From Nitrospirota bacterium (GTDB lineage Bacteria; Nitrospirota; JACRHJ01), in contig JAJYHX010000006.1 of the NCBI GenBank assembly GCA_021784575.1, positions 1-64,000 on the forward strand: a stretch of 64,000 nucleotides of DNA, written 5' to 3'. Below, one piece after another: positions 25,190-55,194 of this stretch. Below the pieces are notes generated by a model. The model ran no database searches, had not been told where the DNA came from, and saw only the letters and a program-made list of their open reading frames with translations. Numbering within the stretch: position 1 is the first letter of the stretch; every line of letters starts with the position of its first letter. Both the position numbers and the translations under genes were made by a program.

Positions 25190-26719
25190 CTACTTCTTCA
25201 GTTCCTTTTTCAATATCTTGCCGGCAGCGTTTGTCGGAAGGGCGTCCATGAACACCACGCGGCGCGGAAGCTTGTATAGCGCAAGACGCTCCTTAAGGAA
25301 CGACTTAAGCTCTTTTTCGGTCGCGGCGCGGCCTTCGTGCAGGGATACGAAGGCCTTCGGAACCTCTCCGCGGCCCTCGTCCAAGACCCCTACCACGGCG
25401 GCCTGGCGCACAGCGGGATGGGCGTAGAGCGCCTCCTCGATTTCCCTCGGATAGATATTCATGCCGTGCGATATTATAAGGTCCTTCTTCCTGTCCACTA
25501 TGAATATGTATCCGTCCACGTCGATGCGGCCCAGGTCGCCCGTATGAAGCCAGCCGTTTTTTAATGTCTCGGCCGTCGCTTCGGGCGCATTCAGGTATTC
25601 CCTCATGACGTTTGGCCCGCGGACGGCAATCTCGCCAACCTGCCCGCGCGGCAGTTCCGAGCCGTCCTCCGAGAGTATGCGCGCCTCCACGCCGGGCAGG
25701 GGCAGGCCGACGGAACCGGGCTTTCGCGCGCCGTCAAGCGGATTGCACGAGACGACCGGAGACGCCTCTGTCAGGCCGTATCCCTCCAGGAGCGGGATGG
25801 GATAGTTTTTTCCCCAGCGCGCAAGCGTATCCTGTGAAAGCGGGGCCGCGCCGCTCACGCAGAGCCGAAGCGGCAGGAGCCTCAATATCAGCCGTGGGAA
25901 GCGCCTCATCGACAGGAGGTTGTACACCGGCGGGATGGCTATGAAAAAAGACGCGCGGCCGAATATCACGGCCTTTATGACATTCGAGAAGGGTTTCACG
26001 GAGCGAAGGATTATTACGCTCGCCCCGACGGTTAAAGGCAGAAGCAGGCATACCATAAACGAAAACGCATGGAACATGGGTAGAAAAAGCAGAAAACGAT
26101 CCCTTCTCGTGACCTTGAACATATCTATACAGGAACGGGCGTTTGAAAGGAGGTTATCGTGCGTCAGCACGACGCCCTTGGGTTTTCCGGTCGTCCCGGA
26201 GGTGTAGAGAATGGCGGCGACCGGTTGACCGGCCTCATCGCCCTCACCCGGCGCTAAAGCTCCACCCTCTCCCGCAAGGGGCGAGGGGTTATCGTAAAGG
26301 CGCAATTTACCGCGCCCGCGAGCCAACTCTTCAAAAGCGCCCCCGGTTGAGATAATCTCTATGCCGCGCAGGTTCTTTGTCAAATCCATGAATTCCGGAG
26401 ACGTTACGAGTATTTTTGCCCCGCAGTCGGAAAGGATATATTCTATTTCCGGCGCTGTAAGGAAGGTATTCAGGGGGACGGCTGCGGCCCCGGCCTTGAC
26501 AATACCGAAGTATGCGACGGCGAATTCCGGCGAGTTGTTGAGCAGGATTGCGACAGCCCCGCCTCTTTTAATGCCAAGGGACGAAAGCGAGCCGGCAAAA
26601 GCCGAAGTCAGGCCGTCGAGCTCGCGGTAGGAAATCTTCCGGCCTTCAAACGAAAGCGCCGTCCTGGAAGGGTATTTTTTTGCGGTTAACTCAAGCTGTC
26701 CGCCAAGCGTAATGCTCAG
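25190..26719 (-). CDS. Acyl-CoA synthetase (AMP-forming), probable CTG start, with in-frame repeat insertion
   Basis: The protein has 509 residues if it starts at CTG 26717-26719. The adenylate-forming motifs are complete: YTSGTTGKPKGVVLTHDN, GYGLTEASPV, TGDLGRIDVDGYIFIVDRKKD, and the catalytic Lys in NAAGKILKKELKK. It would activate a fatty or other carboxylic acid to acyl-CoA. No ATG, GTG or TTG occurs in frame between the upstream TAG and codon 111, yet those codons encode a normal N-terminus (KYPSRTALSFEGRKISYREL, AVAYFGIVKAGA). CTG has AAAGGA 7 nt upstream. Before the P-loop, about residues 134-168 (PSPLAGEGG, PGEGDEAGQP) are encoded by intergenic-type repeats. It ends convergent with the HD-GYP gene. 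Confidence 0.85.
   Translation of the reverse strand: MSITLGGQLELTAKKYPSRTALSFEGRKISYRELDGLTSAFAGSLSSLGIKRGGAVAILLNNSPEFAVAYFGIVKAGAAAVPLNTFLTAPEIEYILSDCGAKILVTSPEFMDLTKNLRGIEIISTGGAFEELARGRGKLRLYDNPSPLAGEGGALAPGEGDEAGQPVAAILYTSGTTGKPKGVVLTHDNLLSNARSCIDMFKVTRRDRFLLFLPMFHAFSFMVCLLLPLTVGASVIILRSVKPFSNVIKAVIFGRASFFIAIPPVYNLLSMRRFPRLILRLLPLRLCVSGAAPLSQDTLARWGKNYPIPLLEGYGLTEASPVVSCNPLDGARKPGSVGLPLPGVEARILSEDGSELPRGQVGEIAVRGPNVMREYLNAPEATAETLKNGWLHTGDLGRIDVDGYIFIVDRKKDLIISHGMNIYPREIEEALYAHPAVRQAAVVGVLDEGRGEVPKAFVSLHEGRAATEKELKSFLKERLALYKLPRRVVFMDALPTNAAGKILKKELKK
26215..26322. repeat. Composite of three dispersed repeats inside the acyl-CoA synthetase gene
   Basis: From left to right: the mini-palindrome CCGGTTGACCGGC (26221-26233), a CCCTCTCCC/GGGGCGAGGGG palindrome (about 26262-26288), and a GGCGCAATTTACCGCGCCC element (about 26298-26316). 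All three types recur elsewhere in intergenic DNA of this window. Their combined length keeps the reading frame. Confidence 0.75.
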
Positions 26720-26807
26720 TTGAGGATCCTTTCGCTAAAAGGCCGTGGAATGTGTTCGTGGAAAAACAAGAACGGACGTGATTCGTGTTCGTAAAATCTA
26801 AATTTTT

Positions 26808-42178: not shown

Positions 42179-42772
42179 ATGACAAGGGGAGCCAGGAAGG
42201 TTGCGGTTTTTCTCACGGTTGCGGCCTTGATAGCCATGATACCAATAGGGTGCGCCAAGAAGCCGCCGCAGACAGTGCAGGGGCTTTTGAATGCGGGAAA
42301 GACCGCGTACAGGGAGGGCCATTATCAGAAATCGCTCGAGTTTTTTACCGAGGCGGCGAAGCTTAATCCGCAGGATCCGGAGGCCCATTTCTTCCTTGGC
42401 AACATCCTCTCGATAACGGGGAAGAAACAGGAAGCCATTGCAGAGTATAATAAATCCATACTTATCGCGCCCAACGTGCCCCAGCCGTATTACAACAAGG
42501 GCAACGCCTACGCCATGCTTGGCGATAACCAGCAGGCCCTCGATGCGTTCAACGAGGCCATAAAGATAAACCCCAAATACGTTAGGGCGTATTACAACAA
42601 GGCGCTTATACTTTCGCGCATGGGCAAGAAAAAGGAGGCCCAGGAGACGTTCACGGAGGCGCGCTCCCTGGCCCCGCTCGGCCCGAACGGCCAGCCTGAA
42701 GCCGGTCAACCGGCGGCTCCCGCCCAGCCGCAGCAGGCTCCCGGCGCCGCCCCGGCACCGCCGGCCAAATGA
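42179..42772 (+). CDS. TPR lipoprotein
   Basis: The protein has 197 residues. The signal peptide ends AALIAMIPIGC, so Cys is lipidated. Three to four tetratricopeptide repeats follow (GHYQKSLEFFTEAAKLNPQDPEAHFFLGNIL, AIAEYNKSILIAPNVPQPYYNKGNAY, ALDAFNEAIKINPKYVRAYYNKAL). The C-terminus is an Ala/Pro/Gln-rich tail in which QPEAGQPAAP is encoded by the mini-palindrome at 42701-42714. TPR lipoproteins act as assembly scaffolds in the envelope. The stop overlaps the next gene's start (ATGA), so they are coupled. Start 42179 is supported by AAAGGGG. Confidence 0.85.
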   Translation: MTRGARKVAVFLTVAALIAMIPIGCAKKPPQTVQGLLNAGKTAYREGHYQKSLEFFTEAAKLNPQDPEAHFFLGNILSITGKKQEAIAEYNKSILIAPNVPQPYYNKGNAYAMLGDNQQALDAFNEAIKINPKYVRAYYNKALILSRMGKKKEAQETFTEARSLAPLGPNGQPEAGQPAAPAQPQQAPGAAPAPPAK

Positions 42773-43548: not shown

Positions 43549-43680
43549 ATGTTCCACGCGGAACATAAAAAACGATGGTTCCCGAAATAAATCCTTATTT
43601 ATCAATGGGTTGAAAATCGGCGGCCTGTCTGTCAATAACTGTTTATCGATTGTATAACCCGTTGTAAAACAAGTATAATC

Positions 43681-43863
43681 CCCGCACACCCTTTTTGGCC
43701 TGAAATTGCCCGAAAACGGCCCGTTTTCGAGCCGCTTTCGATACCGCCGAGGAAATGCTAAATTTCATCCTTTTTATTTTAATAATCAACTGGTTGCACG
43801 ACTAATCCGGAATAGCCGCTGACAATGAACTTCGCCTACCGATGAGGATTGCTCACGGGTGTT
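43681..43863 (+). repeat. 185-bp dispersed element, copy 1
   Basis: It is closely similar to the complement of 54881-55065: shared blocks include TTTTTGGCCTGAAATTGCC, AAAACGGCCCGTTTTCGAGC, ACTAATCCGGAATAGCC and CGATGAGGATTGCTCACGGG. No ORF was recognised in it. Confidence 0.85.
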
Positions 43864-43979
43864 CGAGTCGTTTTATGAGTAAAGCCGGGCGCAATGAATT
43901 GCGCCCCTACGATGAGCAGGCGGGGGAATGAAATGCAAAAGGTGGATTCTTCGCGGAGTTCAGAATGACGGGCTACCTT

Positions 43980-44026
43980 CATCCCCCTCTTAAGATAAGA
44001 GGGGGAACGAGGGGGCGTTATGACAA
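43980..44026. repeat. Dispersed palindrome, CCCCCTCTTAAGA type, copy 2
   Basis: CATCCCCCTCTTAAGATAAG leads into AGGGGGAACGAGGGGGCGTT and then TATGACAACT. It matches copies at 39624-39670 and 54801-54846. Confidence 0.85.
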
Positions 44027-44346
44027 CTGTGGATGGCGGCGAACCCTCTCCCGGCCTTCGGCCACCCTCTCCCATGAAAGGGAGAGGGGTAACTTCCGGG
44101 CGCAAGTGAACTCGCGCCCATACGATTAGCACCGGCGTGGTGATGACAGCCTGTCTCCTTATCCCCTTTTCGTGTATAACCGGTGAGCAGCAGGGGCGGG
44201 GATAACAGGGATTTGCCGATGGGCGCGTTTCCATTGCATGGGCGGTTTTTATGGCCCGGCACGGCCCGTCTCTCGCGCTTCAGGTAACCGTTTTCACTTT
44301 AAAATGGTATACTTATTTATGAGAGCAACATGGAAGGAGGGTATCT

Positions 44347-47270: not shown

Positions 47271-47406
47271 GGGCGCAATTCATTGGGCCCGCGCAAGACA
47301 TGATGGCGCGGGGGGAATGACTTAATCGGGAAGCCATGTTTTATGGTTTTAAAATCGCCCGATGAATCGGGCAGCTACAATTCGGTTAAAGAAAAGAGAA
47401 TTTAAC

Positions 47407-54737: not shown

Positions 54738-54800
54738 TTTGCTGTTCCGGACCCCCGGCTTTGTGCGCGGCCCAGTGCCGACTCCGCGAAGAATCCGCAG

Positions 54801-54846
54801 TTGTCATAACGCCCCCTCGTTCCCCCTCTTATCTTAAGAGGGGGAC
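54801..54846. repeat. Dispersed palindrome, CCCCCTCTTAAGA type, copy 3
   Basis: TTGTCATAACGCCCCCTCGT leads into TCCCCCTCTTATCTTAAGAG and GGGGA. It is inverted relative to copy 2 and almost identical to it. Confidence 0.85.
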
Positions 54847-54880
54847 GAATGGTGATGTTGTTTGCTAATACCTAAACCCA

Positions 54881-55065
54881 AACGCCCGTGAGCAATCCTC
54901 ATCGATAGGCGCAGTTCATTGTCAGTGGCTATTCCGGATTAGTGATACAACCTACTGATAAATAAAAATAAAAATGAGAAAAAATAGCGTTTTTCGGGCG
55001 GTATATAAAGCGGCTCGAAAACGGGCCGTTTTCTGGCAATTTCAGGCCAAAAAGGTGGTGCGGGG
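54881..55065 (-). repeat. 185-bp dispersed element, copy 2 (inverted)
   Basis: It is the complement of the element at 43681-43863, with high identity over most of the length. Together the two copies form an inverted pair flanking about 11 kb. Confidence 0.85.
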
Positions 55066-55194
55066 AAGGCGTGATTTTTTTTATGGGGATTTATAAATTC
55101 CTCTTATTCCACAATGTATTACGGTTTATATAAATATCGGTTGATATATAAAAACCGTTTTTGCAACCGCTTGAAAAATCAAGGAATTTTTTTC

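Follow-up and report, generated by a model that had tools for sequence, protein, structure and literature searches.

How do repeats of the kind that usually lie between genes come to sit inside an enzyme gene without breaking it? The question is raised by an acyl-CoA synthetase gene in the window, the whole 64-kb stretch of DNA analysed here, which is the first part of contig C8 in a 2.1-Mb Nitrospirota MAG (G000; 96.7% complete). The nearest named relatives of G000 are Nitrospirae MAGs. The original prediction placed three dispersed repeats, fused in frame, just before the ATP-binding loop of the encoded protein, and all three were found there at 26215-26322 within an open frame (Table 1). 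We consider it very probable that small mobile palindromes use the linker before the P-loop as a landing site, and that they became fixed because they were tolerated.

Table 1. Coordinates of the acyl-CoA synthetase gene, its repeat-derived linker and the associated repeats in the window
Feature	Position	Strand	Description
Acyl-CoA synthetase gene	25193..26734	minus	PF00501 (AMP-binding) and PF13193; full-length orthologs; 514 codons open; stop codon at 25190-25192
Repeat-derived linker	26215..26322	minus	Codons 138-173, directly before the P-loop motif AILYTSGTTGKPKG; pLDDT and dN/dS evidence
Element A in gene	26294..26317	+	GTAAAGGCGCAATTTACCGCGCCC; decayed copy with GTAA tag; minus strand encodes GRGKLRLY
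Element B in gene	26241..26288	+	Composite of CCCTCACCC, GGCGCTAAAGCTCC mini-hairpin and CCCTCTCCC hairpin; minus strand encodes about NPSPLAGEGGALAPGEG
Element B hairpin	26265-26287		CCCTCTCCCGCAAGGGGCGAGGG; part of the longer composite 26241-26288
Element C mini-palindrome	26221..26232	no strand	CCGGTTGACCGG; within minus-strand codons for EAGQP
Nearest intact A outside the gene	43887..43910	minus	GTAGGGGCGCAATTCATTGCGCCC on the minus strand

An acyl-CoA synthetase gene with three repeats in frame

The gene product has the domains and the motif of an acyl-CoA synthetase. Both Pfam domains are recognised (E = 2.9e-94 for PF00501 and 6.2e-22 for PF13193), the closest NCBIfam model, long-chain-fatty-acid--CoA ligase NF004837, scores above the model's cut-off, and the P-loop motif YTSGTTGKPKG is intact, placing the protein within the family. 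The linker in front of this motif is composed of a GTAG-tagged palindrome (A), a composite palindrome with the core CCCTCTCCC (B) and a mini-palindrome, CCGGTNNACCGG (C), and the reading frame is open across all three. The B element in the gene is identical to dispersed copies over 26 nt and 85% identical over 47-48 nt.

The 5' end of the gene reaches further than the ATG-initiated ORF implies, as the open frame (25193-26734) begins near a CTG. This CTG, within 26717-26737, occupies the position at which the related genomes G001 and G002 carry a TTG start; a stop codon lies just upstream, with an AAAGGA motif in between. None of ATG, GTG and TTG occurs at this end of the gene in G000; the CTG either acts as start codon itself or is a start codon lost to mutation.

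Element A has the features of a GTAG-tagged REP

Copies of A and B were counted by pattern searches combined with reading of the stretches around the matches. The A pattern, GGGCGCAATNNATTGCGCC, gave 50 forward matches in G000 at up to two mismatches, and none when reversed as a control. Forward matches numbered 29, 14, 15, 42 and 66 in the related genomes G001 to G005, respectively; across 55 other genomes of the phylum A was absent or rare, with 0-7 matches at up to one mismatch. The palindrome has arms of about 9-10 bp and an unpaired GTAG at one end. On the tagged side, at least three of the four tag letters are present in 39 of the 51 copies read (all four in 25), and the opposite side scores 0-2 letters, so that the tag is found at one end only. 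Most copies of A and B lie outside Pfam-supported genes, few of the A copies read being inside one. A is thus a mostly intergenic palindrome with about 50 copies, and its sequence features point to a REP of the GTAG-tagged type.

Elements B and C differ in where they are found

The B pattern, CCCTC[TG]CCC-N5-GGGAGAGGG, matched G000 25 times and its controls not at all. Together with GGCGC..GCGCC and CCCTCACCC, B can build a longer composite. Each of the three elements had been predicted to recur in intergenic DNA nearby. This holds for A, which has a further intergenic copy at 47271 besides the one in Table 1, and for the B core (44044, 44065, 44080 and 56580), but not for C, whose remaining copies in the window fall within open reading frames, and in at least two cases within Pfam-supported genes. 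The window contains four copies of C (0.13 expected), a count that none of 100 shuffles reaches; the 251 kb read contain nine. Neither a GTAG nor a CGTC tag was seen by eye in the copies of B and C that were read.

C copies (GCCGGTNNACCGGC) were found mostly in ORFs, at 42702, 54117 and 63352 in the window and at L153:2807, L159:2386, L177:2116 and 2215, and L185:1565 elsewhere. Six of these eight copies encode x-A-G-x-P-A, in linkers or tails. The hosts of this peptide are a TPR protein, the N-termini of a histidine kinase and of an outer membrane efflux protein, an RNase H linker and an E2 linker.

Relatives carry empty, filled and intermediate forms of the linker

Comparison with orthologs, which had been proposed as a check, separates species with and without the repeats. 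At the codons where the window has GGGCGCGGTAAATTGCGCCTTTAC (translated GRGKLRLY), G001 has a perfect 24-nt A with an intact GTAG tag, GGGCGCAATGAATTGCGCCCCTAC (translated GRNELRPY), and G002 carries a further decayed copy of A. In G005, which belongs to the same family and another genus, and in more distant orthologs, the linker contains neither A nor B and its residues are unrelated. This distribution indicates that A entered the linker before the genus radiated. G000, G002 and G004 all carry B, the latter two as a short form (the G004 contig breaks within the linker), and G001 has neither B nor the residues it encodes. Because the four-gene tree is (G002,G003),(G000,(G001,G004)), the simplest history would be a single ancestral gain of B with loss in G001, followed by enlargement in G000. 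Among the orthologs compared, none that lacks the repeats has the same amino acids at this place, the pattern that the original prediction had named as evidence against it.

The size of the gain, given earlier as about 35 residues, needs to be divided into two quantities. The repeat-derived stretch is indeed about 30-35 residues long, but the net gain is smaller. The linker measures 60 aa in G000. Corresponding lengths are 44 for G001, 50 for G002 and 74 for G005; eight relatives from another family, f5, have 42-47 aa, and enzymes further removed have 36-68. It is therefore longer in G000 by 16 aa than in G001, by 10 than in G002 and by 13-18 than in the eight f5 relatives (10-18 against most relatives), and shorter than in G005. 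Since lengths span 36-74 aa across the whole family, the site tolerates length change; for the same reason, linker length is by itself no proof of insertion.

This variability raises the question of whether the linker is simply fast-evolving, low-complexity coding sequence in which G+C-rich drift has produced palindromes by chance. Such an origin would be in keeping with the range of lengths, with relaxed constraint on the linker (dN/dS 0.45-0.6) and with coding-strand RNA that folds like shuffled sequence (z = -0.98). However, a 24-nt exact match including the GTAG tag, as in G001, is expected about 1e-12 times per such linker from base composition, and the agreement of B with its dispersed copies described above is also at odds with chance. 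Given this 24-nt match and the zero counts of the reversed-pattern controls in G000, we reject chance palindromes, an explanation that we regard as extremely improbable, in favour of insertion of mobile palindromes.

The enzyme is retained and its linker is predicted to be disordered

An AlphaFold2 model built from a 21-sequence alignment has a mean pLDDT of 86; the sole stretches with values under 50 are residues 1-5 and 141-168. Outside the linker, the model matches solved acyl-CoA synthetases with Z of about 50. In comparisons of G000 with G001 or G002, dN/dS is 0.10 for the core, which is thus under purifying selection, and 0.45-0.6 for the linker. Because of the predicted disorder, the fold match and the difference in dN/dS between core and linker, the enzyme appears to be retained, with a linker that is nearly free to drift. 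The open frame and the constrained core agree with the original proposal that intergenic-type repeats entered a coding region without breaking it.

These data also bear on whether the insertion inactivated the gene, or whether the linker is an artefact of MAG assembly. Two observations would be in line with such an explanation: the gene in the window begins without the TTG of G001 and G002, or an ATG or GTG in its place, and the G004 contig breaks off in this very linker. Against it, related in-frame sequences occupy the same place in separate assemblies, the core dN/dS is 0.10 and the model folds confidently, which makes inactivation or artefact very improbable.

A role for the repeats within the gene, either as an mRNA hairpin pacing translation between the N-terminal subdomain and the P-loop or as a DNA binding site, could account for the survival of an intact A in G001 since the genus split, and REPs elsewhere are thought to serve as RNA hairpins (PMC3733652). 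However, the tag and arms of A have decayed in the window, B is missing in G001 and enlarged in G000, and the amino acids of the linker evolve fast. Since shuffled sequences fold as well as the coding-strand RNA of the linker, a stable mRNA hairpin is unsupported; the plus strand gave z = -2.5, but it is not the mRNA sense. We therefore find retention for an in-gene role very improbable, and favour tolerated insertion.

Similar insertions are found in other proteins

The suggested search for similar in-frame insertions at loops gave positive results in MoeA, KdsA and RmlD, so that, with the acyl-CoA synthetase, four conserved genes carry in-frame insertions that are absent from orthologs. In MoeA, G000 alone carries a B-type repeat insert (153-185) of about 32 net residues; the flanks are joined, leaving an empty site, in G001-G005, G018, G052 and the solved MoeA 1uz5. 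The insert in KdsA (KDO-8-phosphate synthase, identified by PDB matches) is absent in G003, G005, G018 and G052 and in solved relatives. G001 and G004 have a short B hairpin at this site, and in G000 a further repeat is nested in the B hairpin, for about 38 net residues altogether. RmlD has gained about 23 net residues from A plus flanks in all five genus members, and lacks them in G005.

Repeats also make up linkers between domains. The linker of an E2 acyltransferase contains B-like and C elements. In a fusion of Endonuclease V with an HhH-GPD DNA glycosylase domain, the interdomain linker consists of B-type repeats in G000, G001, G002, G004 and G005, and in G001, G002 and G004 it is additionally built from a GTCATTCTGAGCGAAG-GAAGAATC repeat. 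Both genera of the family have this fusion (L175:849-2303, equivalent to G000:C10:58298-59752), and the intergenic-type repeats in its linker differ from species to species.

Not every match was accepted. WaaA (kdo transferase; L156:1492, and L223 in G004) has an A-like palindrome in G000 that is perfect in G004. It was rejected as a clean insertion, the net length gain being only about 2 aa; A may have replaced native codons here, which would add replacement of native sequence to insertion. A match to A in an AI-2E transporter (L155) was taken as native codons without a tag. LarC/Ni_insertion (L138), an ABC gene (L183) and others were left out, as the element precedes the domain and possibly the start. 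RsmD (L171) and a trehalohydrolase-like gene (L158) are likely further insertions on the basis of Pfam.

A broader reading of these cases is that the genus routinely builds loops and linkers by stepwise, nested capture of palindromes, that C, often encoding x-A-G-x-P-A, has been propagated chiefly as a linker module that is translated, and that intergenic repeats became the EndoV-HhH linker. We think this unlikely. If it is true, these elements would form a family that owes its success to being translatable.

A possible course of insertion

Under the preferred reading of tolerated insertion, A, as a GTAG-tagged REP, would have entered the linker before the genus split, and the B palindrome would have followed, with a longer, apparently nested B plus C in the window's species. 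The inserts would have persisted where they kept the frame, had no stop codon in the frame used and landed in a disordered, length-tolerant loop, with the inserted sequence decaying afterwards under weak constraint. Fixation would then be a matter of filtering, the survivors being stop-free, frame-preserving inserts in loops. Of this course, the repeats and their copy number, the empty and filled sites in relatives, the open frame, the predicted disorder and the constraint pattern were observed. Movement of A by RAYT-type single-strand transposition, using a Y1 enzyme, and neutrality of the insertions for the enzyme are both presumed.

A search of G000 for a Y1_Tnp/RAYT gene gave no match. G001 and G003 each have one Y1_Tnp gene and G005 has two; their flanks contain neither A nor B, with the exception of a single GCCCCTAC 8-mer close to one of the G005 genes. 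No target-site duplication was demonstrated at the insertions.

Relation to known repeat families

Intragenic GTAG REPs have been described by Di Nocera et al. (2013; PMC3733652), who report dimers or groups encoding 20-30 aa, with linkers or loops suggested as locations. The GTAG tag defines one of two REP superfamilies, with stems of 6-13 bp and a small loop. The repeats studied here resemble these in having GTAG at one end, a short stem and small loop, a mostly intergenic distribution with a minority in ORFs, and grouped inserts encoding 20-30 aa at loops or linkers. They differ in that no RAYT gene flanked by A was found, and in that the copies of B and C that were read show no GTAG tag. 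The empty sites in sister species and the nested growth go beyond that description. The text of PMC3733652 makes no mention of Nitrospira.

Rickettsia palindromic elements (Ogata 2000, 2002, as cited in PMC10969869) are described there as about 150 bp long, with a conserved encoded peptide. Like them, the present repeats are palindromic, lie in frame in unrelated metabolic genes and are apparently tolerated. By that description they differ in having units of about 24-50 nt, piled up from two or three families, and we do not claim membership. The RU-type small mobile sequences of enterobacteria (Delihas 2007; PMC2759123) are likewise mobile repeats with open frames that form part of annotated genes; those are MITE-like units of 103-168 bp and not short GTAG-tagged palindromes.

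REPs inside genes are therefore already established, as are Rickettsia palindromic elements and the translated small mobile sequences of enterobacteria; the value of the present case lies in nested growth together with empty sites in sister species. We found no earlier report of intragenic REPs in Nitrospirota in the open-access literature. The source of insertions that grow protein loops and linkers is seldom visible. Because one genus holds donor repeats, empty sites and intermediates (in KdsA, the short B of G001 and G004 and the nested form of G000), the rates, tolerated positions and decay of repeat-derived peptides become measurable.

Other repeats in the window

Two regions, 43679-44034 and 54793-55066, hold long inverted copies of 57-113 nt (80-96% complementary) that include TTCATCCCCCTCTTAAGATAAGAGGGGG and AATCCGCAGTTGTCAT-like repeats and make up a larger family of composite repeats. 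At 562-1269, a unit of about 99-102 nt (33-34 codons) is repeated in tandem, and these repeats are probably of the ankyrin type.
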